From contig LGRX02024691.1 of assembly GCA_001247695.2 (NCBI GenBank), positions 1-64,000 on the forward strand: a stretch of 64,000 nt of DNA. The letters are read 5' to 3'. Below are positions 12,665 to 60,265 of the stretch, one piece after another. The DNA is from Cymbomonas tetramitiformis. Lineage: Eukaryota > Chlorophyta > Pyramimonadophyceae > Pyramimonadales > Pyramimonadaceae. Made by a program: the position numbers and the translations under genes. Positions within the stretch are counted from its first letter, which is position 1, and every line of letters starts with the position of its first letter. The notes beneath the pieces are model-generated. The model did no database searches. It was not told the origin of the DNA and saw only the letters and a list, made by a program, of their open reading frames with translations.

Positions 12665-12667
12665 TAT

Positions 12668-20165: not shown

Positions 20166-20256
20166 CTGCCAGTGTGAATTATTTTTATGATATACCAAAA
20201 GGTAACTATTTCACACGTTTTGACAACGTCTAGTCGTTTTTTTCTCACATATTGCA

Positions 20257-21043: not shown

Positions 21044-21053
21044 GATTTATAGG

Positions 21054-22675: not shown

Positions 22676-22681
22676 TATATA

Positions 22682-23290: not shown

Positions 23291-23307
23291 AAAACTCGTT
23301 AATAGTA

Positions 23308-24678
23308 ATGCAAGTTCCTTGTAATCAAAGCTATCAATCCAATGCTTACTGTCGTCCATCTAGTAGTTATTTTAGTAATTTTGTTGATGCCGATAAAGAT
23401 GAGAAACAAATACATAGTCCGGTTTCGCGTAACAGGTCTGACAACAGCAGTAAACCTTTCAAAACTATGGTAACAATCAAGAGCAAACCAATCATGAAAC
23501 CTAACGATGTTGACAAGTATACACAAAGGGACACCTCTAATTTGCTGAATGCCTTAAGTCAAGACGCCGTAAAAGTTCCAAGAACCGCCCTGAACAAAGT
23601 CTTTGGTGCTAATATCACGTCTAGGGACAATCCTACACAAACAAGGTATGCACGGGCATCAGATGTCGCTTATGCTTATAGTTATGGTGACCGAGGTCGG
23701 TTGAAAAGTATTATGAAAGGACTTCCGGGTTATTACGTAGACCGAAGTTTGTCGGGTAGAAACTCTACAACGTTGGTCAATCCTAAAAGCCAAGACGTTA
23801 TTATTGCATATCGAGGCTCTGATACAGAATTTGGAAGTCTGAACACTCTTGCCCAGGACATCTCACGTGGACAAAATGTAGAAGATTGGTATGTAAATCT
23901 TTTGACATTGATGAAACAACAACGTAGTACATCAAGATATCAAGAAGCACAACAACGATTTGACGATGTCAAAAGTAAATACGGTGGGTATAAGTTATCT
24001 GTGACTGGTCACTCTAATGGAGGTGGTCAAAGCAATTATATAGCCGAAGTTAACAACGTAGAAGGGCATCATTTCAACCCAGCAATCAATCCTATGCAAG
24101 AACCGATGAACACTCCTACGGAAAAGCAGGTGTTGTACTCAACAGAAGGCGATTTAGTGTCATTACCAGCCCGGTTGAGACCACATGCTAAAAGCAATTA
24201 CGATATCGTGCACGTCAATCCAAAGGTAGGTACGGAAAACGATTTGACAAAATTACATAGCGTGGAACAGATGTACTCAGATGCACCGGAGTCTACGCGA
24301 GTCAGTACAGCAAGGTCTCGTTACGGCTTCGCCAACGCCATGACAGGCTCGGCTGTGGGAGGGTACCTTGGATATTACACACCGACTGACACCAACGACG
24401 AACGTATCTTTAGGACCACTCAAGGTTTATTGGAACCAATCTTACTATCAGAAACTCCCAATGTGAATTTCACAGATTTCATGAATGTTATGGGTGTCAA
24501 AGAAAGCTTAGGTGAGAAGAATTATATACGTGGAAAATTGGGACTGAATCCTATAGAACAAAAACCGTTAACGGAAGTGCCGGTCTATGACCCAATCACG
24601 GAGATGATACGTCAAGCCACGGGTCGTGCTGACCAAGACAAGGAGTTGTTTGAAGAATCAAAAAAGGTGGCACTTTAG
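23308..24678 (+). CDS. Lipase class 3-like alpha/beta hydrolase
   Basis: A 456-residue protein with a class 3 lipase fold. AYRGSDTEF marks the oxyanion-side strand, and VTGHSNGGGQSNY holds the nucleophile elbow GHSNG with the catalytic Ser. Asp and His candidates follow (STEGDLVSLPAR, DIVHVNPK). The N-terminal 60 residues look disordered. The ATG follows GTTAATAGTA. Similar hydrolases occur in virions of Polinton-like and giant viruses and may help cross membranes; that role is inference here. The stop codon lies within hairpin H5, so the last residues are encoded by hairpin sequence, perhaps an insertion that truncated the original end. Confidence 0.8.
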   Translation: MQVPCNQSYQSNAYCRPSSSYFSNFVDADKDEKQIHSPVSRNRSDNSSKPFKTMVTIKSKPIMKPNDVDKYTQRDTSNLLNALSQDAVKVPRTALNKVFGANITSRDNPTQTRYARASDVAYAYSYGDRGRLKSIMKGLPGYYVDRSLSGRNSTTLVNPKSQDVIIAYRGSDTEFGSLNTLAQDISRGQNVEDWYVNLLTLMKQQRSTSRYQEAQQRFDDVKSKYGGYKLSVTGHSNGGGQSNYIAEVNNVEGHHFNPAINPMQEPMNTPTEKQVLYSTEGDLVSLPARLRPHAKSNYDIVHVNPKVGTENDLTKLHSVEQMYSDAPESTRVSTARSRYGFANAMTGSAVGGYLGYYTPTDTNDERIFRTTQGLLEPILLSETPNVNFTDFMNVMGVKESLGEKNYIRGKLGLNPIEQKPLTEVPVYDPITEMIRQATGRADQDKELFEESKKVAL

Positions 24679-24736
24679 GTCATATTCCCATTATCTTATA
24701 CATAACCATAATATGACCCAATCTGCCACCTTTTTT
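24660..24736. repeat. Long hairpin H5
   Basis: The hairpin is in reverse orientation relative to H3/H4 (the loop reads CCCATTATCTTATACATAAC). Its arms are slightly diverged (GGTGGCACTTTAGGTC and GACCCAATCTGCCACC). It overlaps the last codons and stop of the lipase-like gene and precedes the next gene by 18 bp. Confidence 0.9.
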
Positions 24737-24754
24737 GATTTATATGATAATAAG

Positions 24755-24967
24755 ATGGACCGTCAAGAATTGATACGCTTAGCCAAACTTCAATACCCCG
24801 ATATTAAAGAAGCTCATGTAGAATTGCTTGTAGATGATTATATCAAACGTCCAGAATTTTACGATGACCTTTGTACTGGAAACATTGAAGAACCAATTCC
24901 TTTAGAGCGGGATACTGTTGATTCTATAAAAGATAATTGTTATATTAATATAGATGAGCGTAATTAG
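24755..24967 (+). CDS. Small acidic hypothetical protein
   Basis: A 70-residue protein (begins MDRQELIRLAKLQYPDIKEA), acidic and helical. It overlaps the start of the minor capsid gene by 14 bp, which suggests translational coupling or simple compaction. I start it at 24755, after hairpin H5, and not in the longer frame that reads through the hairpin. No domain is recognised. Confidence 0.68.
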   Translation: MDRQELIRLAKLQYPDIKEAHVELLVDDYIKRPEFYDDLCTGNIEEPIPLERDTVDSIKDNCYINIDERN

Positions 24968-25954
24968 CACAAGAACGCTATTCTTGTCTTCCGAAGACAA
25001 TAGCAATGGAGACGCACGTGTTTTGCAAATGAACATACCCACTCAACTGATAAATTACCGAGCACAAACCAAATTGAGATTAACTTTGAATACTTTCTCT
25101 TGTGCAAAGACATGGTATAGTATCAACGAGACCAATGGCATCTTCTATGTGGGTGATACGGTAAATAATACTTTAACGGAAGTTCAAATACCTTATGCAA
25201 ATTATACTGATTTAGACCAACTAACAAGATTATTACAAACAAGCATAAAGACGCTGCCATTGTTGGATACACCGGTGATGTAAGTGTGTTATACAATAAT
25301 AGCGGCGATGGACTTGATTATAAGAATAAATTTCGTATAACGTTGAATCCTGCAGCACCCAATATTAAGTTTGTATCATTCAGCGTGAGTGGGGACTTTT
25401 TTGCTTTACCGGGAAGTAATTTACAAAATGCCCTAATTTCAGTTTCCACAGCTGGAAAATACAATGACTCAGATCAAGTACTCGGAGGTCGTGTTAATAG
25501 AAGCACAGCTGGTTTACGTGAGATATCTGAACTTATAGACTTGTTTGGCAGCACTACACCCAACTCCGTGTTTCAATCTGTTTATCCATGTAACATTCAA
25601 ACCAACGACGCCTTGTACCTTAGGGTCACATCGTTACCAACACACAATATTGAATCAACAAATCTTTCTACTTTTACAAACACTAACGAAATGATAAGTT
25701 CTGATATCTGGGCGAAAATACTATTGCCTAGTGACACAACGACAGACTTCATAAGATATATAGACCCAAACGACAACTTTGTTATTGAAGTGTCTGGGTC
25801 TCAATTTACTTCATTTAGAATCACACTTACAGATTCTAAAGCAAGATTAATCACATTGGCATCTCCGACTCAAGCGTCAGACGGTTCTATCAATTATTCA
25901 TTGAGCATCAAAGTTGAAGAATTGGCACCTGCTGGTCTATCAGATATTTTATAA
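24954..25954 (+). pseudogene. Minor capsid (penton-type) protein, frame-broken
   Basis: Two adjoining frames make one protein of about 330 residues. The first runs from 24954 to 25283 (109 residues). The second is open from 25211 and continues to 25954 as beta-rich sequence (AAIVGYTGDVSVLYNN onward). The frame must move by -1 between 25211 and 25280, most naturally at the short A run in CATAAAGACG near 25247. The second part has no promoter-like motif of its own. Position directly before the major capsid gene and the beta-rich, Asn/Thr-rich composition fit a single jelly-roll penton protein. The break may be real decay, a sequencing indel or recoding; no canonical slippery heptamer is present here. 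Confidence 0.68.
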
Positions 25955-25976
25955 TCTTTATAATATATATACAAAA

Positions 25977-27313
25977 ATGAGTCTGCCAATGAGTCTTGCT
26001 TACGGCTTATCGAAAATGAATTCATATTCAACTAATTACTTCAGATTAGAGACTACTAATCTTACCGAAGCATCAAGGTATAGTACTATTACACTAAATT
26101 TACCCGTTAATTCAATTGTAAACATGAAGAGTTTAGCCATGCATTGTTTAGGTTCCTGTACAACGCCTTCAGCATTTCAAAACGACGAAGATGTTGCTGA
26201 TGAATTACATACGACGCTCCCCAATGGCATCGAGAAACTGATTCAAAGAATGGAAATTTTCGCCGGAGGGCAGCAGTTGACCACTGGTTTTCAATCCTAC
26301 AACACGGTCAGTTGCGTACTTGATACTATCAAAACCACTCTTAGCAAAGAAATGACTTATCAAAGGGTTCTTAAGAATCAAGAAATCTCTGTAGCCGAGA
26401 ACTTTTACAGCACACCTCGTCCATACATTTTGAATCAATGGCTAACGTTTTTGGGTGAAGCTGAACCGTCCTACATTGATACTTCACTTTTGCCACCGAT
26501 TCAGATAAGGCTGTACCTTGCAGGTCCAGAAGTCCTCGGGTGTTGGCAAAAAACAAAAACGCCTGGTGCAGCAATTGACACGAAAGCTCAAGAAGAATTA
26601 GTATCGAAAGGCAATTTTAAATTGGACAAACTTTACTTTACCGTAGAGACGATTACATTCAGTTCTGGAGTATATGATGCTGCCGTTGAGAGCAAACTGC
26701 GTGATGGATTCTTGGAGATTCCGTATTGCAATTACTTTACCTTTTTCGAAGGAGCTGGTGGTATGGCCAAATCGACAAGGTTCTCTTTGAGTTCACAATG
26801 CATTAATAACATATATGCTGTGCAAAGGCCTAGTGATTATAGAGAAAAAAACAAAGGACTTATCAAATTGGCAAATACATGTGGAACCGAGCCTACCTAC
26901 CCTTATACTTTCAGTTTTCAGCAGGTGGATTGGGTGCTCTGCAATTTAACATTAATAACCTGTTCGTTCCTAACTATCGAGTCGACCCTCTTGCAGCATT
27001 CAATCTGCTGACTATCAGTAAAGCTGACAATTATGGAACGCTATCGGGATGTAAAATTAATTCATATGAAGATTGGCTGAACAACCAATTCATTCCCATG
27101 GTACGTTTGAATCTTCCCTCAGAAATGGGTGTAAGAAATTTAACTGGTTTGGATTCTCGGGGTTTAAACAGTCCCTTCTACTATCAAACTTCTATTGCAT
27201 CACCAGCAGACCCGCTACAAACGGTACTTACAACAAACGAAACCATGATTATTTGCGAAACGACAGCCGTGCTTCGTATCGGTCAAAACCGTGTGATTGA
27301 AACTGTATTTTAA
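25977..27313 (+). CDS. Major capsid protein (double jelly-roll type), -1 frame switch
   Basis: This gene encodes the hexon-type major capsid protein, about 445 residues over two frames. The first frame runs from the ATG at 25977, just after TATAATATATATAC, to 27011. The second frame is open after a TAG at about 26838 and ends at 27313, with typical C-terminal capsid sequence (YLPLYFQFSAGGLG, NYRVDPLAAFN). The switch needed is -1. In the overlap, at 26845-26851, lies GAA AAA AAC, a canonical A_AAA_AAC slippery heptamer in the correct phase. Either the protein is made by programmed frameshifting, or one A was lost from a run of eight. The size fits PLV capsid proteins. The order penton-hexon is common in the group. 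Confidence 0.8.
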
Positions 27314-27336
27314 AACGCTGTTAATAGTATACAAAT

Positions 27337-27657
27337 ATGGCTCAACAGCCAGGATTAAGCAGTTACAACATGAAAAAAGATGTAGGACCGAACGTGGACA
27401 AACAAATTCACACCGCGACGATGTTTCAAATGTCAGGTTTTAGACCGGTTATGATGCAACACCTACCATGTAAAACAATCAATGACATCACATATCCACC
27501 ATTCAGGATTAGCAACGTTCATCCTCTGGCTGGATACAAATCTTATACTTTAGGGCACAATCAAAAAGTGTCAAAAGAAATGGAAATGTTCCATTTCCCG
27601 ATGGAGCATCCATTGAATAGTCGATTGTTGCAACCTGTACCTTTGTTTTTTTCATAA
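27337..27657 (+). CDS. Small hypothetical virion-type protein
   Basis: A 106-residue protein whose ATG follows GTTAATAGTATAC. It is rich in Met, His and Pro (FRPVMMQHLPC, FHFPMEHPLNSR). No family is recognised. Position between the major capsid protein and the fiber genes suggests a minor structural or cement protein. Confidence 0.68.
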   Translation: MAQQPGLSSYNMKKDVGPNVDKQIHTATMFQMSGFRPVMMQHLPCKTINDITYPPFRISNVHPLAGYKSYTLGHNQKVSKEMEMFHFPMEHPLNSRLLQPVPLFFS

Positions 27658-27673
27658 GTTAATATATATTAAC

Positions 27674-28048
27674 ATGTCTTCATTTGGAAATGAATTGAAT
27701 GCAAAAAAAGTGGTGGCCGATGATTTGGTCGGTCGAGGAATGACCATCGGTCGTGATGGTAAAAATGGGGCTGTACCGGAAGCAAGAACTCAAATTAATT
27801 TGTTAGGAACTGAAGCTATATTTAATCTTGATGCAAGCCAAAGCGGGGACCCCGGTATTGCAGATTTCAACATGGCGGGAAAGCTAAGCAAATTTAGATT
27901 AGGTGGGTTGCCAATTGTCACAGGTCCAACAAATACACCTCCATTTGACGCCGAAGTTCCGGTTAATGGATTGTATGGTTATCGGACTACAAATACTTTA
28001 CCTGCCCAAATCTTTATGAAACTTGTCTCAAGACGTCCTCCACTGTAA
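27674..28048 (+). CDS. Short fiber-like protein with MSSFG anchor
   Basis: A 124-residue protein with the N-terminus MSSFGNELNAKKVVADDL. The same pattern, MS(S/A)FG followed by a Leu and a repeat-like strand, begins the two larger fiber genes at 28074 and 30561. This suggests a common anchor to the capsid. The rest is short and Gly/Asn-rich, without recognisable domains. The ATG follows TTAATATATATTAAC. It may be a trimmed fiber or an adaptor between vertex and fiber. Confidence 0.68.
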   Translation: MSSFGNELNAKKVVADDLVGRGMTIGRDGKNGAVPEARTQINLLGTEAIFNLDASQSGDPGIADFNMAGKLSKFRLGGLPIVTGPTNTPPFDAEVPVNGLYGYRTTNTLPAQIFMKLVSRRPPL

Positions 28049-28073
28049 ATTATTAAATCGTTTATAGTATATA

Positions 28074-29996
28074 ATGTCAGCTTTCGGTTCAAATCTAATA
28101 GTTGAAAAAATTAACGGCAAAGACTATGTAGCAGCCCCAGGGACAACCGATACACTAACGTGCGATACAGTTGTGTGCCAAACTATAGGCAGCGTAGACT
28201 CGCCGTTAGAGACGATGCATATCGGTTCGGACATACGCTATCAGAACGATATCAAATTCATAGATACTCAAGACCCATTGAATGAACGAGAACAGATGTC
28301 CTTGTTGACAGATGGGTCGCTAAAGGTACACACTTCAATAAAATTCAACGACTTCGTATTAAACAATCCAGTGTCGAAATCACGATTCTCAGCAGGCCTT
28401 GATGACCTCGATGCATCGTTTGAGATTAAAAGTTTGGACCCTGTGGAACAAACACGAGTTAAGATAGGCGAAACAGGCATCAACGAGGTAACCTGCTTGC
28501 AGACAACAATCAATATAGAGCCTTTCGGCAATGGGGTATTGATAAACGACGGCCCACTCGTACTCAATACCGGCGATTTAACATTGACAAGCGGTAAGTA
28601 TCGAGGAGATGGCTCATTGTTAACTAACTTACCTTCTGGTGCAAATCAGAATCTACAATCGGTCACCGACCAAGGTAGCACGACGACAAATAGTATTAGT
28701 GCATCTGCATTTGTCGGTGATGGTTCAGGATTGACAAACTTACCGGCACAACCTGAAACCTCTACACTTCAAGATGTGACCACCCGAGGGGCTGCAAGCA
28801 GTGTCGCCGATGTTTCATACACCGGAACGGGTACCATGGTAGTCAATCAAGAGAAACTTAGTGGGAATAATCTTAGAATTGAGAGTGGCGCTCTCGGTCT
28901 AGGTAAGGTATCGATAGGAGAGCAGACACAAGGATACACAAACGCCGACCACATTGGAGACCGTTCTATCGCAATCGGCCGCAATGCATTATCTATTAAC
29001 AATACAACAAGTAATGATACGATTGCAATTGGTTCTGGTTCATGTAATAACAATTGCGGTTCTTATGTCGTGTCTATTGGGGACGACTGTGGGCAGAACA
29101 ATTGCAAAGATGCAGCCGTGAACATCGGGAAATATGCAGGTGAATTTACAGCAGGTGAAAATGCAATCAACATAGGTGCTCTCGCAGGACAGAACTCTGC
29201 TCAAAGTGCGGTAAACACCGATAATACAATCGTTTTGAATGCAAGCGGGGTTGAATTAAACGCCGGTGTCGCAAGTAGTTGTTATATCAGGCCTATAAGA
29301 TTGTCTCCCGACCCAGCAAGCGAGTCACAAATGTTGCATTATGACACAGCATCCAATGAGGTCCGATATGGTCCTGTTTCTGGTGGCGGCGGTGTTCCAA
29401 GTTTATCACAAGTTCTTGCTGTCGGAAATACCGGTGGTTCAATCAACCTCACTTCAGATTTGGATACGACGGCCATAAGAATCACGAACAGCATTGATTG
29501 GGCTTACACAACACCAGACACATCTTCAATAACGACTGATGGTATTCCATTAACCCAACTCACAAGTGCTTATAGGAAGACTACATCACCAAACACATTC
29601 ACAGGTCAAGTGTATACGATGGTAAACACAACAGCTTCTACAATAACATCAGGAACTGTTCTTTCTTTTGACGATGTAAGCACTAACATCAATGGTATCA
29701 AACCCTATGCAGCAACAAACACAGCTACTAATACCAATGTCGGTGTTATAGGTGTATGTGTCCAAGATAGTCTTACAGGTAATTCTTGTTTTGTACTTAT
29801 TAGCGGTTTCTGTTCTGTTAACTGTATTGATGGTTCGTACACCAAGGGCCAGCTTTTAGGAGCTCAAGCAAACGGTGTTGTAAATTCAGCAGCAGTTGCG
29901 GCGACTAATGGTGTAATCGGGTGTTGTATGGAAACCGTAACTCATGCATCGCCAAATGCAGTTATATGTTATTTACAACCGTCATTTAAATTGTAA
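28074..29996 (+). CDS. Fiber / adhesin protein with YadA-like head repeats
   Basis: A 640-residue fiber. The N-terminal anchor begins MSAFGSNL. Residues about 165-235 contain two copies of a phage tail-fiber motif (GDGSLLTNLP and GDGSGLTNLP). Residues about 300-385 contain trimeric-autotransporter head motifs (RSIAIGRNAL, NDTIAIGSG, YVVSIGDD, NAINIGALAG), with many Cys and Asn. A distinct C-terminal domain of about 190 residues follows and probably binds the host surface. By analogy it is the trimeric receptor-binding spike of the virion. The ATG follows TTTATAGTATATA. Confidence 0.82.
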   Translation: MSAFGSNLIVEKINGKDYVAAPGTTDTLTCDTVVCQTIGSVDSPLETMHIGSDIRYQNDIKFIDTQDPLNEREQMSLLTDGSLKVHTSIKFNDFVLNNPVSKSRFSAGLDDLDASFEIKSLDPVEQTRVKIGETGINEVTCLQTTINIEPFGNGVLINDGPLVLNTGDLTLTSGKYRGDGSLLTNLPSGANQNLQSVTDQGSTTTNSISASAFVGDGSGLTNLPAQPETSTLQDVTTRGAASSVADVSYTGTGTMVVNQEKLSGNNLRIESGALGLGKVSIGEQTQGYTNADHIGDRSIAIGRNALSINNTTSNDTIAIGSGSCNNNCGSYVVSIGDDCGQNNCKDAAVNIGKYAGEFTAGENAINIGALAGQNSAQSAVNTDNTIVLNASGVELNAGVASSCYIRPIRLSPDPASESQMLHYDTASNEVRYGPVSGGGGVPSLSQVLAVGNTGGSINLTSDLDTTAIRITNSIDWAYTTPDTSSITTDGIPLTQLTSAYRKTTSPNTFTGQVYTMVNTTASTITSGTVLSFDDVSTNINGIKPYAATNTATNTNVGVIGVCVQDSLTGNSCFVLISGFCSVNCIDGSYTKGQLLGAQANGVVNSAAVAATNGVIGCCMETVTHASPNAVICYLQPSFKL

Positions 29997-30007
29997 ATAT
30001 ATTGTAA

Positions 30008-30547
30008 ATGCCTGTAAAGCGAAATAATCCTAATTTACCAAGTTGTGAAACCGTCGTTCAAGATGGTGTCGGTATGAGAATAAAAGGTATTATAAATGGT
30101 AGACTTGCAAATACTCGATGCAAGGTAAGAAATATTGCTGACGCCCAAGGAAACGTAGTTAGATATAATAAACAGAACTTACCAAAAACAAAAGCAAAAA
30201 CAAATCAACGTCAATCTAGGGTGAACGTATCATTAGAGGGTGGGACCGGTGCAAACGCCATTTTAATATATGATACAGGGGCAACGTCCACCCAAATGAG
30301 CACAGCAGATGCCAGACTTATAGGAATAATTAAACCAGACGGTACGTCCGATTATCATAATCAACCACAACGTGCTACCGGTATAGGCGGTTCGGTTGCC
30401 ACAACACAATATTCCGACGTTCCTTAAATATTACCAGCGACCGGTGAAGTCACAGAAGGCTCGGTATTGGTTTATCCTAACGCTATAGGATTGTTAGGTA
30501 TATCACATATAAAACACTTTAAACGATACCGCGTGAAATTTAAATAG
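30008..30547 (+). pseudogene. Retropepsin-like aspartyl protease with an in-frame stop
   Basis: The first 139 residues include ILIYDTGATSTQMS, a retropepsin active-site strand with DTGA. At 30425-30427 an in-frame TAA interrupts the gene. The same frame then continues for 39 codons, including GLLGISHIKHF, the hydrophobic-hydrophobic-Gly motif expected at the C-terminal side of a retropepsin, before a TAG at 30545. The break therefore falls between the two halves of the fold. The basic N-terminal region (PKTKAKTNQRQSR) may be a pro-region or nucleic-acid-binding arm. Polinton-type viruses usually use an adenovirus-like cysteine protease; none is visible here. Alternatives are a true short product or stop-codon readthrough. 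Confidence 0.75.
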
Positions 30548-30560
30548 GTACATATGATAT

Positions 30561-31364
30561 ATGTCAAGTTTTGGACAAAGTTTAGTTTGTAAGAATTTAA
30601 CATGTGATACCGTTAATGGTCAAACATACAATCCTGTACAAAGTTCAAAATGGACCGAAACAAATAATGTTTTGGAACCGGCAACCGCTGGAGCAAGTGT
30701 AAAAATTTCCGGTTTAGAAGTAGATGGAAATGCAAGAATCAATGGTGGAATTGTCAACGTTGTACAATTAGGTTCCAAGACAAATTTAGAATTACAAGGG
30801 TCAAAATCTACTGATTCAACATTTATAGATTTGAATACATCACTGGTTGAATTATCAGAAGTTGATTCAGTGTATGCTTTGGAGTTTCGTAAACGACCTA
30901 TTATACCATCAAATCAATTTTTTAGAATTAACATGTTAGGTGATATCATAGGTTGTAATGATATAGATTGCAATAAGTTAACAACAAAAACTTTACAATA
31001 TAATTTTCCTAGAATACAACCTATAGCTGGTCAAGGTACTCGAATATTGAAATTCCCTTCAAATACTTTTGGTGTATTTTGTGAATTTCAGTTGGCAGGT
31101 GCTGAAACCGGTTCTCCAGTAGCTAATTTCAAAATTCAACACGCTGATACAGCTGTGAATGAGAACATTGCAGACAACTATGTTTTGATTTGTGAAGGTT
31201 TAGGTTTCTTTACAATAGCAGCGGCGAGAGATACATTAGTTGCATCTACAAATTTAATTGGAGAGAATAATTTGGAGCTTAGTATTTCTTCTTTGTATCA
31301 AAATTTTCCAAACAATGTTATTAGATTTTTCTTGAAGTTAATTCCTGTTTCTCCAAGCCCGTAA
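30561..31364 (+). CDS. Fiber-like protein with MSSFG anchor
   Basis: A 267-residue protein that begins MSSFGQSLVCKNLTCDTVNG. LTCDTV also occurs near the start of the 640-residue fiber, so the two share an anchor. A beta-rich shaft follows (KISGLEVDGNARINGG). The C-terminal domain of about 120 residues differs from that of the larger fiber (GVFCEFQLAGAETGSP, LICEGLGFFTIAAA). It is probably a second, alternative receptor-binding protein. It ends 20 bp before the right terminal repeat. Confidence 0.75.
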   Translation: MSSFGQSLVCKNLTCDTVNGQTYNPVQSSKWTETNNVLEPATAGASVKISGLEVDGNARINGGIVNVVQLGSKTNLELQGSKSTDSTFIDLNTSLVELSEVDSVYALEFRKRPIIPSNQFFRINMLGDIIGCNDIDCNKLTTKTLQYNFPRIQPIAGQGTRILKFPSNTFGVFCEFQLAGAETGSPVANFKIQHADTAVNENIADNYVLICEGLGFFTIAAARDTLVASTNLIGENNLELSISSLYQNFPNNVIRFFLKLIPVSPSP

Positions 31365-31514
31365 TTTCTTCGGGGGATTTTTTAGATATCAATTGGGAAA
31401 CGTGGGAAGTTGTGCCGTTATCTACATAATTTGCGGTGAACAATAAAAAATATTTCCCGTAAATAACCTGGGTGATGCCCCATGGATAGAACCGCGATTC
31501 ATAACAGCGAAATC

Positions 31515-31588
31515 AAAAGGTGGCAGATTAGGCCATATTACGGACTATATATAGATAATGTGAATATGGCCTAATCTGCCACCTTTTT
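31515..31588. repeat. Long hairpin H6
   Basis: The mirror copy of H2 in the right terminal repeat, with the loop GGACTATATATAGATAATGTG. It lies 150 bp after the last fiber gene and could serve as its 3'-end signal. Confidence 0.9.
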
Positions 31589-31742
31589 AAATTCAGAAAA
31601 TCTAAAATACATAAATGATACAAAACAGCGTGCCCATCGCGGCGAACAAGCAAAAATATTTCAAATTCAGAAAATCTAAAATATAATTCCGATAATTCTG
31701 ATACAAAACAGCGTGTGAACGCGGTGAAAAATCAGATGAATC

Positions 31743-31817
31743 AAAAAGGTGGCACTTTAGGCCATATTCCCATTATCTTATACATAACCGTAATATGGCC
31801 TAATCTGCCACCTTTTT
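31743..31817. repeat. Long hairpin H7
   Basis: The mirror copy of H1 in the right terminal repeat, with GGTGGCACTTTAGGCC in the left arm and the common loop in reverse orientation. Confidence 0.9.
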
Positions 31818-32082
31818 CATTTTCGTCACATTTTCGGGCAAAAAAATAGTTATTTTTATAAGGGGACATCTGCATGACACCTGCAAGACCCATGCAAATC
31901 CACAGTAAGGACCAACGCGGAATAACAGTAGGTGACCAGTGGTGCGTGCCGGAGATGACCAGGTGTGCTCACTACATAAGAGGCGTCCGCAAATACTGGG
32001 AAATACCGGGAAATATCAAGAGGAGTACAGAGGATACCGGTGAATATAGAGGTGATGCCCCCTGGACACGCCTCTTATGTAG

Positions 32083-33494
32083 TTCCCCCCCACTACCGCC
32101 TACCGAACGCTGTGTGCTTCCTGGAGTCGGCGTTGATTGTGGAGTGCTGCGGGCACCCGGCAGACTCGCTTGCCGTGCGGATGGAGTCCGCAAGCGTCCA
32201 TCCGGTCTTCCTCGTCCCCTGCCGCTACCGCTACCATGCATATTTTCCAAATTCTTAAGTGAACTTTACATATAATACCGTCCAAACCACGTTTTATCTA
32301 TATATCTAATCCCAAGGAATGTTTCTGTATGTTCAGATATCTCCAGTGTGATCTTAGGCAACATCGCGATGTCTCATGGACATTCTAACGATGGGGCCAT
32401 GGTTTCCAGCCTGGGCCTCATCTTGGAAACCGTCGATTAAGTATCTTGAGGAGTATTACGATGAATCCTACGATCAGATCTAGGAATGAACTGAACCAAC
32501 GTTAAACTAAGGTCGTTCAGCGCTCGATGGATGGCATGAACATGAACATCGACCGGCATCACAGACGTTTCACGAGACATCGCGACATGTCGCGATAATA
32601 TAAGTGGCCCTAGGAATGATGTGGAGTTCGGAATATATCTATATATATAGACTCAGAATGCTTTCGCTTACTTTACTTGTGTCAAACTGATAATAAGTTA
32701 ACTCTCGGCATAAGCCGAAACCCTACGGACTCGTGTCGCCCTGTACTATAGGAGTACACATTACAGATTACGGAGGTGACACACAATGTGTCATATTCAA
32801 CAGCTCTGACCAATCTCCGAATGAACCGGCGCCGGCGGATGCCTCTCTAGCTGAAAAAGGCTCCTTAGGGTTCAGGATGTAGGAGGACCGGCAGGCCTAA
32901 CCCGGGGGTTTTACCGAGGAAAGCTCCTCTGTAATGTACTGTCGTTTTGTCTGCACTGCACTGTCTCTGTACCGCGTTCGTGACGACATGTCAATTTCCG
33001 CGTCTCTGGTTGGAGGTCCACCGTTTTTCGTCGACGACATTACAATACAGACGAAAAGGACGACAGTATAGAAGCAGAGTCGGGGATGTTGCCAAAATGG
33101 CATTTCTCAAAATTAAGTATGGGGCAGTAAAGCCGACGGTACATACGATGGCACCGACAGTACAGACGACAATACAGACGACAATATCAAATCTTGGCAA
33201 ATACAATACAGAAAAATGACAGTACAATACAGAGGAGGTTTCGTCGCTGAAACACCGGGTAAGGACATTGTTTTCGTGTTCCACCTCTCTCCTTTGGGCG
33301 GAGGTGGTGTCAAGGGAATATATATCTCTCCCTCTCTCTCTCTCTCTCTTCACCACACCGTGATTTCACACTTTCCATCACTTCAGTCATGTGTCTCGTA
33401 CGCAATCCGGTTAGATCTCGTGTGACATGCTGACTGATGACACGGGTTGCCTTATTTTCAGGATTCCGATCGATGATTCCGGCTTCCGTATTCG
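32083..33494. other. Right flank of the provirus, no supported gene
   Basis: The first 170 bp are GC-rich and open on both strands, and may hold part of the host gene split by the provirus. From 32280 to 33490 the sequence looks like repeat DNA (AT-rich TATATATA stretches, clusters of ACAGTACAGACGACAATAC near 33040-33200, and a CT microsatellite at about 33325-33351). I see no exon that can be supported. Confidence 0.5.
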
Positions 33495-46784: not shown

Positions 46785-46789
46785 GAATT

Positions 46790-47475
46790 TGTGCCAGGGG
46801 CACGACGACAGATGCTCGGAGATATGTTTTTGATTGAACGTGCAAAGGTACACAATTCGGGTTTTATAATATACTGGATCAGGGCCAGATTGAGGTACAA
46901 ACGATAATTCGGTTCCGAGTTCTGAAGGCTAAACACTTCTCAAGTGCTCCACTTATTCACTCGTCACTCAGGTTGCAAGGTCAACCTCTTGACGGCCGAT
47001 GTCACACTTCGGCTCAACGTTCAATTCCCGATCCGATCTCATTTCTAATTCCGATTCGTCATTCTTGATTCAGATGTTATGCTGACAGACTGGCACGATG
47101 ACTGTCCCACAGTACTGTCATACTGCTGTACTGTCATACTGTCATACTGTCATAGCGTCATACTGTCATACTGTCATAACCTTGATATCTGATATTCAAT
47201 CTCATTGTCTCTTCAACCCCGATGCGAATCCAACCATTCTTCGAGGGTCTGACTGAGTGCCACGATGACACCCCCCACAGTACTGTCATACTACTATAGT
47301 GTCATACTGTCATACTGTGTCATAGTGTCATACTGTCATACCCCGGACATCTGGTACTCATTCTCATCGTGATTTCAAGCCCAATTTCACTGTCATCGTG
47401 CCAATCCCAGATTACCCCCGATGACACACATACGGACGCATAGGCATATCGGCTCACGCTGTGCCTCCGGGCACA
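46790..47475 (-). repeat. 3' LTR
   Basis: Read on the minus strand it starts TGTGCCCGGAGGCAC and ends GTGCCCCTGGCACA. It includes tandem CATACTGT words (47110-47175 and 47285-47342). It is nearly identical to 59577-60260. Confidence 0.95.
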
Positions 47476-47489
47476 ACTCTCCCCCCCTT
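47476..47489 (-). promoter_or_regulatory. Polypurine tract (plus-strand primer)
   Basis: On the minus strand AAGGGGGGGAGAGT lies immediately before the 3' LTR, the expected place and composition of a retrotransposon polypurine tract. Confidence 0.85.
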
Positions 47490-47578
47490 AGGAGTGGTCT
47501 ACCTCCTGGGATCACTCCGCTAAGGTACCATCTAAGTTCCAGTTCTTAGGTTCTCTGGTTCCTTTCTGTTTCCAGTTC

Positions 47579-50500
47579 TTAGGTTCTCTGGTTCCTTTTC
47601 GGGCATAGCTTGCCTGCCGCTACCAGGGCACCACTTTCACGAAGAAGGGTGCCACTTGGAATCCAAAGCGGGTCTTCAGTTTTGTGGAGGCGTAAATGTC
47701 GGAAAAGTTGTCGCAGCAGAAGTGCTGGCACGGGATATACGCTCGCGGATTGGCCTGCTCCAGTCTGCTGCGGGTGAGGTCCAAGCTGAGCGGTTTCTGG
47801 GTGAGCACCGGTCGCCCATCTGCACGCACACGGTGTTGAAGCAGTACAGCGTAGCAGGGGCGTGGGTGGCGCTGAGTTCGTCCATATGCAAGTGGGCTTC
47901 ATGTACTGCGTACCATACATGCAGTAGGTACACACCAGCGGAGGGGGAAGTTGGCGCATCATAGGGCGAAGCCGCAGCGCGTTAGGGAAGCGACCTCTAG
48001 GGTTTTCCATGAACCAATGTTTCGGCTCCAAGTAGTCAATGATCTGCAATGCTCGTCGTACAATCTTGTCAGCCTGGGGAAGGTCAGGGGGTCCACCAGT
48101 GGTGCGCGCTTGACTGTACTGCCTGCAGGGGGGACTTGCCCATACAACATCGAAGAATCCAGGCGGGTATTGTTTGTAGTCCCATTGCAGGATGTCACAC
48201 ACATGAGTGGGTTGCCAGATATGCCCGGAGTCGAGGGTCACTACTGAAGCGGAGGGGAAGCAATTTAGGAATTCCCTTTCTACTGAGCCAGTACCGCTGA
48301 AAAGTACGAGAATCCTGGGCGTGCGGGTTGCTTTTGTCTGTATCGCCAGCAGCTCTGTCACCAGTGCCAACGACCCATCTTCCGCGCGCTCCTGGCGTTC
48401 CCACGGCAGGGGGGCATCATCTTCCATCTGTTCGAGCTGGTCCAGTTCATCGCAGGGGTTAGTGATGAGGTGGGCCAGTGTCATTCCGGCTTGAGTGGAG
48501 TGACGGCCACGCTGCTCGCGTCGCCGAGTGGCTTCGTCGCGAACTTGCGCTTCCATGTGCAGTCTTGCTTGCTCGAATTCACGAAGTTGTTGAAGTGGAC
48601 TTCCGCGTTCAAGTTTGTCACGCGTCCTCCATTGGTCGTGAGCTTTGGAGTAGCCAGTCCAGCGAACCTTCCACTCTTCCACCTCCTTTCCTCGAACAGA
48701 CCGCACTCGACGTGCAAGGATGCGCTCAACGTGTGCTTCCTTCTGACCGTCCACTACCACCTCTTCAGGTACTGCTAGGTGATCGCGTGCGGCAAAAGCA
48801 TCTTGACCGCTGGTGTACGGTTTGAGGCGATGTTGAGCGAACACGTCGTGAATCCGCCAGTGAGGAGGGAGGCGTAGGCGGTAGGCTACTGGAGCTCCTC
48901 TGTCGGCCTCGGGCATGGTCATCTGTATATCGCTGAAGAAGCGTTCGGTCACAGGAACTGGTCCATGCCAGCGCTTGGTCAGTTTCCTACAGATGGAGCG
49001 ATCCATCACCTTCTCCGTAAGGTGTTTCGCCTCTATCCAGACCAGATCTCCAACAGCATACTCCCGCTGCCCGTGTCTGCGATCAAACTGTTCGCGCTGT
49101 CGCTGTTGAGCCAGCTCTAACCGCTGTCTGGCGTCCCGCAGCTGCGACGAAAATTTCACAGCCACTTCGTGTGCGGTGCCTACTCCCCCAGTTCGTCGTC
49201 CAGCGGTGGACTGTGCGGCCTCCAGGAAAAGGTCCAACTGCGACAGCGGCGAGAACCCGAACACCAGTTCAAACGGCGTGAAGCCAGTAGATTCACTCCT
49301 GGAGTCATTGATCGCGAACTCCACGTTAGTGGTGAACAGATCCCAGTCTTCCACATTGGCGTCTACAAAGGACCTGAGCATGTCTTCAATAACCCTGTTG
49401 CTGTGTTCTGCCTGGCCGTCAGATCGAGGGTTGTACGGTGTGGTACGAGCCACTTTCACACCCATTAGTCTCATGAGTTCCTGCCAGAAAGCATCCTGAA
49501 ACCGTGGGTCACGATCAGAGACAATCTTCATAGGCGCGCCATGTAAGCGCCACACCGAGTCAAAGTAGATTCTGGCCACCACAGCTGCGGAGCTGTCGCC
49601 GAAGTTCATCGGCACAACGTGGACCATCTTAGTCAACTTGCAAGTGAAGGCTACGAAAGCGTCATTGCCTCTCTCTGATACCGGTAGCCCGGTGACGAAG
49701 TCCACCGCGACATCCTGCCATGGCCTGTTCGGGATGCTGTGAGGGTTCAGCAACCCATCCGGGTAGGTTCCCCGCGGCCTCACTGATTGGCACACTGCGC
49801 AGGATGCAACCCAGGTGCCCACATCTTCTGCGGCTCCACGCCAATAGAAGCGTCGCAGCACCCTCTCCAGAGTCTTGTCTCGCCCAGTGTGACCCGAGGA
49901 CAATGACTCATGAGCATGACGAATCACCACTTCTCGAAGTGGAGAGTCCTCCCCCAGCACCAACTGATATCTCCCTGCTGCGGTCCTCCAAACCACTTCA
50001 CCCACTAGTCTGAAGTCCTGTAGGCATTGGTGTGGTGCCGCCTTTACTTTCTCTCTTAGTGAACGAAGTGTCCCCTCTCGGGTGTACTCCGCTTTTAACG
50101 CACGCAGGAACTTTGAGTCTGACTGCTGGGAGGCTGCGTCTCTGAAGTCTGCCGCCTCACCTGTCCTTATCACAGCGGGGGCTGTTCGCGGATGTCTCAC
50201 GCGTGCTGGTTGTGGTTTGGCGGGAGGGGCGTGTACTATCAGAACAGGCCAGCGAAGGTCGAAGGCCTTCCCATCTGGGTTCTCGAAGAACTGATTGGGC
50301 TCTCCCTTGTCATCGTGAGTAGGGATGACCTCCACAATCTGCATATTGGCCTTTCTGAAAAGTTTGCGCCACGCGGGGAGCTTGGACTGGTGATCTGGTA
50401 GAACAAAGACTGCTGAGGTGTTCTCTGGGTCTGCCTTCCATTCTGCGATATACTTGTTCAAGATCGCCTCCACAGTAATGTGCTTGGAGTTGTATGGAGG

Positions 50501-53500
50501 GTTACACCAAACCCGAAGGCCCCTCCATTTCTCTGAAAGGCAGTCTGTCCAGAATCTATCCGCCTGTCTGTTGCGGCCGCCAAAGTCACAACAGGCGTCC
50601 ACATCGAAGGGTCCAAATTTCTCGGCGTACTTCGAGGAGTACTCTGCTCGGACACGCCAATTCTGTGAGTCCTCTGGGGGAGCCTGCCGTTTTTGTGGGT
50701 GAAGGACCGGGGATGGAGTTGACTGTTGGGGCGCCTGCTGCGGGGTTGGCGAGCCCGCTGGCACCTTCTCAGTGGGCGCCTCCGATGCGTCAGCTCGTGA
50801 CGTAGGCGTTCGCGTTTTCGGTGACGCCAACTGCGGGGGCGCTGGGGTCGCAGAGGCCTTCCCAGCGCGTGACATACTCCTCGTTATCCTTATCTGGGGT
50901 GGAGCTCTGTCAGGGGGTTCGTGTGGAGCTTCTACCGGCTTCGCGCTATCAACTGCAGGCCAGTCAGGCATGTCGAAGTCGAGGTGATCCTCCTTCATTC
51001 CCTTATAGAGCTTCGGGTTAACGAGGGCGATGGTCTCCCCCACGTCCATGGCCTGTTCCGCCACGTAGAGGGTCTCCACTGCTGAGAGCCAACAGTCAAC
51101 AGTCTGGGCCCAGTGGGGATGTGCTGCGGGTGGTGAGCTGGAGAAGCATTCAGACTCCAGCGTTGCCAGGGGGTCTTTCGGCAGATCTGAGGTGGGGTCG
51201 ATCACCCCTGCCTCCTTCAACCCCTCACGCACGTCCTTGTCTTTGAAGTCGGGTCTTCTGGACAGGGCGTCCGGTACCAGCAGCAGCGCTCCTTTGATGT
51301 ACTCCATTCTCGGGACTCCCACCTCCACCAGATCCATGTACCAGCGTGCCTGTCTGCGGCTAAGCTCTCTGCCAGGTTCCATCAGCCATTCAAGGGGGCG
51401 GTGATCACCCTGGATGCGGAAGTTGGTGAAGATGAGGTAATGCCGCCAGGTAACGGTGGTACAGTGGTGTAGAGCACCTAGCTCACGCTCACCGGTGTGA
51501 TAATTCTGCTCGGCGGCTGAGAACTGGCGGCTCTCGTATGCTATCACGCGCAGTCCAAGACCATCTCCATTGTCTTGCATCAGTACTCCCCCAAGAGCGA
51601 TGCCGCTAGCATCCGTCTGCACCACGAAAGGTGCTGTGCCGTCTGCGGCACCCTTAATGTTGGGCAAGGCGAGCACTGGCGCTGAGGTGAGGGCCTTCTT
51701 CAGCTCCTCGAAGGCCCACTGCTGCATGGGACCCCACTCCCAGGGTACGTCCGACTTGGTCAACCGGGTGAGGGGCTGAGCGATCTCGGAGAAGCAGTGG
51801 ATGAACCTGCGGTAATACCCCGCCAGGCCCAAGAACTGCCTGACGTGGGTAACCGTTTCCAGCTCGGGCCAGTCCCTCACTGCAGCCACCTTGTCGTGTT
51901 GGGGTCTGCAGCCATCCGCGGAGATACAGTGGCCAAGGAACCGCAAGGATTTCTTCAACAGTTGGCACTTGGACCTCTTGAGGAAGACGCCCTTCTCCCT
52001 GCATGTCAGGAGCAGTTGCTTGACGTGTTCGTAGTGCTCTGCAGCGGTGTTGCTGAAGACGACCACATCATCGATGAAGATCCGGACAAATGGGAGATGG
52101 CCCAAGGCCCGCTGCATCCGTCGCTGGTACTGAGATGGTGAATTTTGCAGCCCCTGCGGCATGACCAACCACTCATATGACCCCATCTGGGTGGTGAAGG
52201 CGGTCTTCTCGACATCTCCTGGTGCCATCGGTACTTGCCAGAAGCCATCCACCGCGTCGAACGAAGAGAAGAACTTCGCACCCTGCATCTCGTCGAACAT
52301 CATCTGGATGTCTGGGAGAGGATACTTGTCCTTAACTGTCTGGCGGTTGAGGAGCCGGTAATCGATCACCAGTCGCAGCTCCTTGGGGTTCCCCGGTTTG
52401 GGGACCATCAGACAGGGAGCTGCATAAGGGCTGGAAGAGGGTCGGATGTAGCCCTTGGACATCAGAGTCTCCACGCGTTCTCGAAGTTGGCGGAGCTCCT
52501 CTGCAGACTTCTTGTAGATGCGCTGGCAGGGCGGCCCCTTCTTGCTCAGCTCAGGGTCCAGGTTAATGTTGGCTTCATCTTGAGGGTCATGTCTGAGTCC
52601 ATCGATGTTCGGTAGTGCAGTCGTCATCTCCTTTTTGTACTCCTCACCCCAGAAGTCCTGAAACTTGAGGGTCCACTCAGGGCTCACTTCTGCATCTTCA
52701 GTATCCGCAGCGGGTTCGGCGTTCTCAGAGTCGATAGCCGTGGCTGCAAAGGCAGAAGCAGTATCATCGGGGGACTTCTCGGCCACCATGAGCCAGGCGG
52801 GTTGTATCTCCGGGTCGTCATTGCCGCGTAGCTTCTGCGTCTCCGCGTACACCAGGTACTTCTTCAGCTGGGTAGGGGTTAGGAACACCTCATCCACCAA
52901 TCCCGCGCAGGCCGTGCCCTTCGGAGACCTGTCCCCAGATGCTTTCCCAGGAGAACAGCCTGTGATGGTGACGCGATCCCCAATCTTACCACCGCGGGAC
53001 TTCCTGAGGAAGGAGACGGAGCCATTCCCTTCATAGCCCAGAGTGACAGGAGAGTGACTGCGCAGCCACCTTCCGCCAAGGATAACATCCACCTGTATGC
53101 CCAGTGGTAGGATCCGGAGGGCAAGGGCGTTCTCCGTATAGGTGCCCGTGGTGGTGTGCGTGTTAAACTTGGCGTACGCGGTGGCGCCAGTAATCTTCAC
53201 AGATCCATCCGCCAGGGTGACTCTCATCTCGGAGCCGGCTCGTGTCGTGAGGCCACATCGCTTAGCGCTCTGCTCCGAGATGAAGTTGTCAGAGGCCCCC
53301 GAGTCGATCAGCACCTTGACCGTGTGCCCTCTGAGGGTTGCATAGAATACCAGCAGTAGCGGTCCTTCTTCGTCATGTGCCGCTGCGAGGGTACCTTCGA
53401 TGTCGGTCTTCCACTGAACTCCCCCATCTGTGCGTATGCTTTTGCACTTGAGGTTGGGGAGGAGGTTGTCCGAGGCCTCGCGGCATTCTTCCAACGTTTG

Positions 53501-53632
53501 CCTACACGCGGCGTAGAACTCCTCATCCAGCAAATCAACATCTTCAGTCGGATGACTGACGAGGTTGTCTACACTCGCCGTCAGCAGCGAGGGTGCCCGC
53601 TGAGGTGCATTCGCTCGAGGTGGGGCTGACAT
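47579..53632 (-). CDS. pol: Pol polyprotein: PR-RT-RNaseH-N6A MTase-IN-chromodomain-C5-type MTase
   Basis: A 2017-residue polyprotein without internal stops. Protease: LIDSGASDNF at about 108-117. RT: KGYIRPSSSPYAAP, DAVDGFWQVPM and the catalytic FIDDVVVFS. RNase H: VVQTDASGIALGGV and GDHRPLEW. Then, at about 985-1135, a Dam-like adenine methyltransferase: FDVDACCDFGGRN and the catalytic WCNPPYNS near 1042. Integrase: HHCC-type zinc finger (HAHESLSSGHTG, CAVCQ), then DVAVDFVTG, SDRDPRF and DGQAEHSNRVIE (DDE). Chromodomain at about 1630-1690: EEWKVRWTGYSKAHDQW. C-terminal C5-type methyltransferase from about 1770: LVLFSGTGSV, WASPPCRQYSQ, HWFMENPRG and CTYCMYGTQYMKPT. The ATG at 53632 overlaps the upstream ORF. 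Two methyltransferase domains in one Pol are exceptional. Confidence 0.92.
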   Translation of the reverse strand: MSAPPRANAPQRAPSLLTASVDNLVSHPTEDVDLLDEEFYAACRQTLEECREASDNLLPNLKCKSIRTDGGVQWKTDIEGTLAAAHDEEGPLLLVFYATLRGHTVKVLIDSGASDNFISEQSAKRCGLTTRAGSEMRVTLADGSVKITGATAYAKFNTHTTTGTYTENALALRILPLGIQVDVILGGRWLRSHSPVTLGYEGNGSVSFLRKSRGGKIGDRVTITGCSPGKASGDRSPKGTACAGLVDEVFLTPTQLKKYLVYAETQKLRGNDDPEIQPAWLMVAEKSPDDTASAFAATAIDSENAEPAADTEDAEVSPEWTLKFQDFWGEEYKKEMTTALPNIDGLRHDPQDEANINLDPELSKKGPPCQRIYKKSAEELRQLRERVETLMSKGYIRPSSSPYAAPCLMVPKPGNPKELRLVIDYRLLNRQTVKDKYPLPDIQMMFDEMQGAKFFSSFDAVDGFWQVPMAPGDVEKTAFTTQMGSYEWLVMPQGLQNSPSQYQRRMQRALGHLPFVRIFIDDVVVFSNTAAEHYEHVKQLLLTCREKGVFLKRSKCQLLKKSLRFLGHCISADGCRPQHDKVAAVRDWPELETVTHVRQFLGLAGYYRRFIHCFSEIAQPLTRLTKSDVPWEWGPMQQWAFEELKKALTSAPVLALPNIKGAADGTAPFVVQTDASGIALGGVLMQDNGDGLGLRVIAYESRQFSAAEQNYHTGERELGALHHCTTVTWRHYLIFTNFRIQGDHRPLEWLMEPGRELSRRQARWYMDLVEVGVPRMEYIKGALLLVPDALSRRPDFKDKDVREGLKEAGVIDPTSDLPKDPLATLESECFSSSPPAAHPHWAQTVDCWLSAVETLYVAEQAMDVGETIALVNPKLYKGMKEDHLDFDMPDWPAVDSAKPVEAPHEPPDRAPPQIRITRSMSRAGKASATPAPPQLASPKTRTPTSRADASEAPTEKVPAGSPTPQQAPQQSTPSPVLHPQKRQAPPEDSQNWRVRAEYSSKYAEKFGPFDVDACCDFGGRNRQADRFWTDCLSEKWRGLRVWCNPPYNSKHITVEAILNKYIAEWKADPENTSAVFVLPDHQSKLPAWRKLFRKANMQIVEVIPTHDDKGEPNQFFENPDGKAFDLRWPVLIVHAPPAKPQPARVRHPRTAPAVIRTGEAADFRDAASQQSDSKFLRALKAEYTREGTLRSLREKVKAAPHQCLQDFRLVGEVVWRTAAGRYQLVLGEDSPLREVVIRHAHESLSSGHTGRDKTLERVLRRFYWRGAAEDVGTWVASCAVCQSVRPRGTYPDGLLNPHSIPNRPWQDVAVDFVTGLPVSERGNDAFVAFTCKLTKMVHVVPMNFGDSSAAVVARIYFDSVWRLHGAPMKIVSDRDPRFQDAFWQELMRLMGVKVARTTPYNPRSDGQAEHSNRVIEDMLRSFVDANVEDWDLFTTNVEFAINDSRSESTGFTPFELVFGFSPLSQLDLFLEAAQSTAGRRTGGVGTAHEVAVKFSSQLRDARQRLELAQQRQREQFDRRHGQREYAVGDLVWIEAKHLTEKVMDRSICRKLTKRWHGPVPVTERFFSDIQMTMPEADRGAPVAYRLRLPPHWRIHDVFAQHRLKPYTSGQDAFAARDHLAVPEEVVVDGQKEAHVERILARRVRSVRGKEVEEWKVRWTGYSKAHDQWRTRDKLERGSPLQQLREFEQARLHMEAQVRDEATRRREQRGRHSTQAGMTLAHLITNPCDELDQLEQMEDDAPLPWERQERAEDGSLALVTELLAIQTKATRTPRILVLFSGTGSVEREFLNCFPSASVVTLDSGHIWQPTHVCDILQWDYKQYPPGFFDVVWASPPCRQYSQARTTGGPPDLPQADKIVRRALQIIDYLEPKHWFMENPRGRFPNALRLRPMMRQLPPPLVCTYCMYGTQYMKPTCIWTNSAPPTPLLRCTASTPCACRWATGAHPETAQLGPHPQQTGAGQSASVYPVPALLLRQLFRHLRLHKTEDPLWIPSGTLLRESGALVAAGKLCPKRNQRT

Positions 53633-59559: not shown

Positions 59560-59574
59560 CGCTCATTGATACCA
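59560..59574 (-). promoter_or_regulatory. Primer-binding site, Met-tRNA-like
   Basis: On the minus strand, two bases after the 5' LTR, the sequence is TGGTATCAATGAGCG. TGGTATCA matches the complement of the 3' end of initiator Met tRNA, the usual primer of many Ty3/Gypsy elements. Only the first eight bases fit well. Confidence 0.75.
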
Positions 59575-59576
59575 AT

Positions 59577-60260
59577 TGTGCCAGGGGCACGACGACAGAT
59601 GCTCGGAGATATGTTTTTGATTGAACGTGCAAAGGTACACAATTCGGGTTTTATAATATACTGGATCAGGGCCAGATTGAGGTACAAACGATAATTCGGT
59701 TCCGAGTTCTGAAGGCTAAACACTTCTCAAGTGCTCCACTTATTCACTCGTCACTCAGGTTGCAAGGTCAACCTCTTGACGGCCGATGTCACACTTCGGC
59801 TCAACGTTCAATTCCCGATCCGATCTCATTTCTAATTCCGATTCGTCATTCTTGATTCAGATGTTATGCTGACAGACTGGCACGATGACTGTCCCACAGT
59901 ACTGTCATACTGTTGTACTGTCATACTGTCATACTGTCATAGCGTCATACTGTCATACTGTCATAACCTTGATATCTGATATTCAATCTCATTGTCTCTT
60001 CAACCCCGATGCGAATCCAACCATTCTTCGAGGGTCTGACTGAGTGCCACGATGACACCCCCCACAGTACTGTCATACTACTATAGTGTCATACTGTCAT
60101 ACTGTCATAGTGTCATACTGTCATACCCCGGACATCTGGTACTCATTCTCATCGTGATTTCAAGCCCAATTTCACTGTCATCGTGCCAATCCCAGATTAC
60201 CCCCGATGACACACATACAGACGCATAGGCATATCGGCTCACGCTGTGCCTCCGGGCACA
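59577..60260 (-). repeat. 5' LTR
   Basis: Nearly identical to 46790-47475. It carries the promoter for the minus-strand transcript. The outer end is followed by GAATT, the target duplication. Confidence 0.95.
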
Positions 60261-60265
60261 GAATT

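Follow-up and report, generated by a model that had tools for sequence, protein, structure and literature searches.

The stretch analyzed here, 64,000 nucleotides of contig LGRX02024691.1 from Cymbomonas tetramitiformis (Chlorophyta; hereafter the window), contains a Ty3/Gypsy retrotransposon whose Pol carries domains matching two kinds of DNA methyltransferase, a Dam-type N6-adenine enzyme and a C5-type cytosine enzyme. Our preferred reading, to which we give a probability of about 0.5, is that a chromovirus-type Ty3/Gypsy Pol gained a Dam-type domain and a phage/Polinton-type C5 domain, and that both would modify the element's own complementary DNA (cDNA), most likely for protection from nucleases.

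Two Methyltransferase Domains in One Pol

Pol is encoded on the minus strand by a single frame of 2017 codons (47579–53632), the sole stop being the terminal one. A Pfam scan of the whole protein gave the order aspartic protease, reverse transcriptase (RT), RNase H, Dam, H2C2, integrase core, SH3_Tf2-1, chromodomain, and C5 methyltransferase. An earlier note on this DNA, made from the letters alone and giving no strand, had described the frame as uninterrupted and had placed a Dam-like domain between RNase H and integrase and a C5-type domain past the chromodomain. Both domains were recovered, its residue ranges (985–1135 and 1770–2017) proved correct, all the motifs it named are present, and each piece scored above its Pfam cut-off when scanned separately.

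The Dam-type domain matched PF05869 (cut-off 28.1 bits) in the whole Pol (residues 985–1056, 30.1 bits, E = 4.5e-7) as well as alone (36.0 bits, E = 7.1e-9), and in PHROGs it matched phrog_111 (49.7 bits, 8.3e-13). The NPPY and upstream F-x-x-D motifs are present; in an alignment of 22 rows, D38 and the VWCNPPY stretch are invariant and F35 is nearly so. The structural model has a methyltransferase-like predicted fold. The equivalog TIGR01712, for phage N6A methyltransferases, stayed under its cut-off (18.9 bits; cut-off 97.05), and a sequence search of solved structures with the Dam piece returned three rows (E 0.023–0.6) with no methyltransferase among them. Within the window, the Dam piece matches itself alone.

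Scanned by itself, the C5 piece scored 24.5 bits against PF00145 (E = 2.2e-5; cut-off 22.0) and 62.9 bits against the DNA methyltransferase family phrog_757 (4.5e-17). The domain keeps the S-adenosylmethionine motif I (FSGTGS), the SPPC motif with the catalytic Cys1836, and the ENP of motif VI. We rejected the idea that it is shortened, as its IWTN and late-proline region aligns with that of relatives in a 15-row alignment. The predicted fold is again methyltransferase-like, with a fold match to DNMT3A at about 14–16% identity; a phmmer search with the C5 piece found no DNMT3 chain at E ≤ 1, and three DNA (cytosine-5)-methyltransferase 1 chains appeared at 0.34–0.36. On sequence grounds we assign the domain to the phage/Polinton type, unlike the C5 domains of the reported Dnmt3-carrying Gypsy elements. 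Action of one or both domains on the element's RNA, not its DNA, seems to us very improbable; the matched families are named as DNA methyltransferases, and the common fold is not informative on the substrate.

A Young and Intact Ty3/Gypsy Element

By its sequence features the retroelement belongs to the Ty3/Gypsy (Metaviridae-type) group and, by the chromodomain after the integrase, to the chromovirus type. It has a pair of long terminal repeats (LTRs) with a target-site duplication, the order protease–RT–RNase H–integrase, and a DD35E integrase (D1373 and E1409, 35 residues apart) with an H2C2 zinc domain (residues 1230–1287, PF17921, 62.2 bits). The integrase core matched rve PF00665 at residues 1303–1402 with 23.9 bits, under the cut-off of 32.6, and the SH3_Tf2-1 match covers residues 1580–1606. 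The best two solved relatives of Pol residues 1–1125 are RT–RNase H proteins, the second named Ty3 Gag-Pol. An assignment to DIRS failed, the integrase being of the DD35E kind instead and the tyrosine recombinase family PF00589 not appearing among the Pfam matches of the element's three open reading frames (ORFs).

The element, 13,471 bases long (46790–60260, minus strand), is complete as an LTR retrotransposon. Its 5' and 3' LTRs are 99.4% identical, with 2 substitutions and one gap in 687 aligned columns; both have TG..CA ends, and GAATT flanks the element on either side. The element is intact, and the nearly identical LTRs with GAATT on both flanks support a recent insertion, in line with the earlier note's view that it is young. 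Given the same two features, and the implausibility of two in-frame gains after insertion, the whole two-methyltransferase arrangement was very probably already in the RNA that produced the present copy and has thus passed at least one retrotransposition cycle. This passage argues against a one-off chimera. The unbroken 2017-codon frame, the LTR pair, the target duplication, and the normal Ty3/Gypsy order around both additions likewise speak against a chimera or an assembly artefact, either of which we regard as extremely improbable.

Relationship of the C5 Domain to a Neighbouring Maverick/Polinton

The closest relative that we found for the Pol C5 domain is encoded in the same window, by a Maverick/Polinton-like element (Table 1). 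Identity between the two is 42.7% over 178 amino acids, and they are reciprocal best matches among 91 other proteins extracted (139 vs 104 bits). In a tree of 30 rows, composed of 28 phage or viral sequences plus these two, they formed a pair with support 98/99, or 99/98 with three long rows removed. An alternative grouping of Pol C5 with the next best row, named after the tree had been seen, was disfavoured (approximately unbiased test, p-AU 0.011); the Pol C5 row deviates from the tree set in letter make-up. The spacer between P-x-C and ENP is shortest in these two proteins (39 residues in Pol, 38 in the Polinton) and spans 43–62 residues in 27 of the 28 others, the last not being scorable. 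Since the identity is just 42.7%, the two genes are not a recent local copy of one another, and the sequences suggest that retroelements and Polintons draw C5 enzymes from a common pool. In the portions covered of the papers cited here and below, Ty3/Gypsy elements are often found close to integrated viruses, and such viruses can bear a methyltransferase label (PMC10120064); retrotransposons nested in cryptophyte Polinton-like viruses (PMC12220804) offer, by analogy, a plausible route for gene exchange.

Relatives of the PHROG 757 type are common, with at least 562 IMG/VR stretches confirmed against the family alignment and identities of 31–41% among the matches listed (80 rows). Further scans were seeded by a few short peptide patterns, so that a blank is weak evidence: the whole Pol had no match in IMG/VR and six pattern matches, none confirmed, among 84,980 prokaryote species represented by one genome each; the Pol C5 piece had eight pattern matches in viral contigs, none confirmed; and the Polinton C5 alone had no confirmed match. 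A two-row alignment of both C5 proteins led to three distant loci in viral contigs and to 44 pattern matches in prokaryote genomes, none of the latter confirmed. In the 177 loci fetched, there was no match (E 0.01) to the RT, integrase, protease, chromodomain or Gag stretch of the element. One 12.4-kb stretch of an IMG/VR viral contig (L151) gave tblastn matches (E ≤ 0.01) to the Dam and C5 domains both.

The Polinton contains a second methyltransferase gene of the N6_N4_Mtase family, and in their kinds of chemistry its N6/N4 and C5 enzymes resemble the two domains of Pol. A derivation of the Pol Dam domain from this Polinton was rejected, the second Polinton enzyme (PF01555) being of another family. 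Counted over 7038–31384, with the second inverted repeat left out, the Polinton has 3 GATC sites against 88 expected and 2 GCGC sites against 25 expected. The lowest counts in 200 second-order Markov simulations were 64 and 12, respectively, and the two sites are the most depleted of all 256 tetramers. The Polinton thus looks as if it had been exposed to nucleases cutting GATC and GCGC, avoidance being the trace expected from such exposure.

Possible Function of the Two Domains

Once Pol is cleaved, the adenine enzyme would remain attached to either the RT/RNase H or the integrase product, and the integrase–chromodomain product would carry the cytosine enzyme. In the particle or the pre-integration complex, both could then reach double-stranded cDNA and methylate it. 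Such methylation would most likely benefit the element by keeping its cDNA safe from nucleases that recognize particular sequences or attack foreign DNA, in a host where Polintons, and perhaps large DNA viruses, are also present. Nucleases cutting GATC are known in chloroviruses and predicted in marseilleviruses (PMC7253447), and the Dam-like enzymes of cryptophyte Polinton-like viruses have been proposed as a guard against giant-virus or host nucleases (PMC12220804). A bolder version, which we put forward as doubtful, is that the two methyltransferases, of which the cytosine one is shared with an endogenous Polinton of the host, are the modification-only counterpart of a restriction-modification system and shield cDNA against the GATC-like or GCGC-like cuts of other mobile elements or of viruses that co-infect the cell. 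If this were true, restriction warfare of the phage kind would be going on within the cells of one host, among its retroelements, Polintons, and giant viruses.

A number of observations weigh against our preferred reading. The retroelement has 49 GATC sites of 62 expected (0.79) and 61 GCGC sites of 85 expected (0.72), with ratios of 0.77 and 0.82 in the flanks. A strong depletion of these sites in the retroelement was therefore rejected, its ratios lying near those of the flanks with no restriction scar; the lack of avoidance fits a modified genome and zero exposure equally and is not decisive. No nuclease cutting GATC or GCGC was seen in this host, where no search aimed at one was made. In the whole Pol, PF00145 matched residues 1807–1879 below its cut-off (E = 4.5e-4, 20.2 bits vs 22.0). 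The Pol and Polinton C5 rows are the sole eukaryotic sequences of the tree, both on long branches, and in a second tree the path to the Polinton row was marginally shorter from row L016 (3.28) than from the Pol row (3.34). The Dam model had one Foldseek match at E ≤ 0.001, in a list that also contains protein and small-molecule methyltransferases, and the Dam domain has LPDHQ in place of the PAR/PAN typical of many relatives. Motif VIII of C5 enzymes is usually QxRxR; in the family of the Pol domain it is replaced by K-x-T in 15 of 15 alignment rows, a stretch that we infer to be its positional equivalent. One full copy of the element is present in the window, the other trace there being a 90-nt RT fragment at 813–902.

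The two motif departures and the single full copy would suit passenger domains, that is, captured pieces that fold yet are inactive aboard a successful element. KnitGypsy-Dnmt3, which gave no methylation in yeast, a result called inconclusive by its authors (PMC5890265), points the same way. We consider this explanation unlikely, as the domains are two separate in-frame additions with their main motifs intact in an element that transposed recently, and a K-x-T shared by every row reads as a mark of the family, not decay.

An epigenetic role is possible, if not our first choice: guided by the chromodomain, the element would put 5-methylcytosine and N6-methyladenine on its cDNA or insertion site, mimicking host DNA or setting its own silencing. 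The C5 domain is positioned behind the integrase and chromodomain, as such a role would have it; methylation of cDNA by retrotransposon DNMTs was proposed by de Mendoza et al., and the SymbioDIRS-Dnmt3 domains were shown to methylate CG de novo (both PMC5890265). The observed/expected ratio of CpG in the retroelement (0.76) is lower than in the left part of the window (0.92) or the right flank (1.08), with a similar value (0.79) in the near flank at 32100–46780 and 0.99 in the Polinton, a set of values that neither demonstrates nor excludes past CpG methylation and that is likewise not decisive for the preferred reading. The phage/Polinton type of the C5 domain, with no DNMT3 chain matched at E ≤ 1, disagrees with an epigenetic role. 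In our view, nuclease protection would be slightly ahead as the purpose, given the viral type of the C5 enzyme and the pressure that the Polinton suggests on one adenine-bearing and one cytosine-type site in elements of this host. The earlier note's interpretation thus stands in part: profiles, motifs, and models agree that both domains are of methyltransferase type, whereas its silencing purpose is not favoured over nuclease protection, given the type of the C5 domain and the site avoidance of the Polinton.

Other Features of the Retroelement and the Window

Table 1. Coordinates of the retroelement, its Pol domains, and the Polinton features in the window.
Feature	Position	Strand	Basis or remark
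3' LTR, TGTGCC...GGCACA	46790..47475	-	686 bp; pairwise LTR alignment, ends read
5' LTR	59577..60260	-	684 bp; pairwise LTR alignment
Target-site duplication GAATT, one side	46785..46789		5 bp; read from sequence
Target-site duplication GAATT, other side	60261..60265		5 bp; read from sequence
Putative primer-binding site adjoining 5' LTR	59560..59576	-	TGGTATCA at 59567–59574
Putative polypurine tract AAGGGGGGGAGAGT adjoining 3' LTR	47476..47492	-	Read from sequence
Gag-like ORF, 1160 aa	55278..58760	-	ORF and Pfam scan
Middle ORF, 564 aa	53544..55238	-	In Gag frame; no Pfam match
Pol, 2017 aa	47579..53632	-	+1 frame relative to middle ORF, 89-nt overlap
Aspartic protease, residues 98–187 (DSGA at 110)	53072..53341	-	Pfam and motif
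Reverse transcriptase, residues 410–568 (FIDD)	51929..52405	-	Pfam, 1.4e-31
RNase H, residues 633–769	51326..51736	-	Pfam
Dam-type N6-adenine methyltransferase, residues 975–1125 (FDVDACCD, WCNPPYN)	50258..50710	-	Pfam, PHROGs, alignment, model
Integrase zinc domain and catalytic core, residues 1230–1412	49397..49945	-	Pfam and motif
Chromodomain, residues 1634–1687	48572..48733	-	PF00385, 29.0 bits (cut-off 25.1)
C5-type DNA methyltransferase, residues 1755–1960 (FSGTGS; SPPC with Cys1836; ENPRG; KPTCIW)	47753..48370	-	Pfam, PHROGs, alignment, model
Maverick/Polinton, 25 kb	7038..32083		699-nt terminal inverted repeats, 100% identical
Polinton C5 methyltransferase ORF, closest relative found of Pol C5	13691..14413	+	Methyltransferase homology from 13754
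Second Polinton methyltransferase, N6_N4_Mtase	20257..20979	+	PF01555, 93.2 bits

Close to the C-terminus of the Gag-like ORF lies a zinc-knuckle-like match (PF00098, 17.1 bits, under the cut-off of 20.8), and a single TGA (TGA CTG; stop at 55278–55280) divides this ORF from the middle one. Read-through of this TGA from Gag into the middle ORF, followed by a +1 frameshift into Pol, are possible expression routes. The putative primer-binding site is argued from its position beside the LTR: TGGTATCA, a form known for Met-tRNA primers, has two matches in the window, the number expected by chance. No tRNA was found in the window by ARAGORN, and no Rfam family reached its gathering score.

The RT fragment at 813–902 is 93% identical to the corresponding region of the element, a trace of an older relative. 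Two long plus-strand ORFs at 61428–63763 may begin another retroelement that is cut by the window end; they matched no Pfam family and were not significantly similar to the Gag of the 46790–60260 element.

The Polinton (terminal inverted repeats at 7038–7736 and 31385–32083) has a GC content of about 0.40, compared with 0.51–0.59 in the flanks. It encodes a DNA polymerase of type B (136 bits), a helicase of the origin-binding type (40.2 bits), a lipase-like ORF, and an rve-type integrase (29.7 bits, under the cut-off of 32.6). Judged by its sequence it is apparently complete and Maverick/Polinton-like, with capsid and packaging genes unconfirmed by profile; ORF 12668–13612, the presumed packaging ATPase, had no confirmed match in the pattern-seeded scan of viral contigs, a blank of the same weak kind as those above. 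Of the three GATC sites, two (18880 and 19172) fall within a GC-richer ORF (18469–19476, GC 0.53, no Pfam match), and one of the two GCGC sites (19591) lies just past this ORF; the region 18469–19591 is perhaps a later insertion. A palindrome-like repeat of 92 nt occurs in seven copies (7292–7383, 7521–7612, 12041–12132, 13653–13744, 24649–24740, 31502–31593, and 31731–31822) and is a possible regulatory or replication signal. ORFs 28074–29996 and 30561–31364 and the shorter 27674–28048 have similar starts (MSSFG or MSAFG), and the one of them that was scanned had no Pfam match.

Comparison with Known Systems

Cytosine methyltransferases are already known in retrotransposons, as are adenine methyltransferases in DIRS elements. 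The earlier note knew of no element with both types in one Pol, and we likewise met no report of one among the matches listed from the open-licence literature, by title and start of abstract, a scope to which preprints, subscription papers, and repeat databases are external. In the parts covered, PMC5890265 describes Dnmt3 in SymbioDIRS and KnitGypsy, assigns the SymbioLINE enzyme to an orphan type, mentions Dam-like enzymes of DIRS elements, and calls the role of retrotransposon methyltransferases unclear; PMC12344493 reports DNMT3 inside LTR and DIRS retrotransposons, and the part covered of PMC12695648 contains no such element.

A near likeness is KnitGypsy-Dnmt3 of Klebsormidium nitens (PMC5890265), an algal Gypsy-type Pol with a cytosine-C5 methyltransferase. 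Its domain is a eukaryotic Dnmt3 and its repeats are DIRS-like, whereas the present element has a phage/Polinton-type C5 domain, ordinary LTRs, and an additional Dam-type domain. SymbioDIRS-Dnmt3 and SymbioLINE-Dnmt of Symbiodinium are also retrotransposons with a cytosine methyltransferase, and the SymbioDIRS domains methylate CG in yeast; they represent other element classes and enzyme lineages, with no adenine domain described in the sections covered (PMC5890265). The Dam-bearing DIRS elements (PMC3783388) share a Dam-type domain of the same profile, PF05869, in a Pol beside RT and RNase H; as described in the part covered, they have a tyrosine recombinase and lack the aspartic protease and DDE integrase, in contrast to the protease and DD35E integrase found here.

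Among viral systems, the short C5 methyltransferases of phages (PHROG 757) belong to the same common domain family, but the loci fetched lack an RT, integrase, and Gag like those of the element. The Polinton C5 enzyme shares the short spacer, yet it is encoded by a gene of its own in a virus-like DNA element, unlike the Pol-fused domain. With both methyltransferase types in one Pol, and the cytosine enzyme nearest to a virus-type lineage, the purpose of such domains becomes testable as chromatin marking versus nuclease shielding, and the Polinton, with its similar enzyme pair and near-zero GATC and GCGC, supplies concrete candidate sites.

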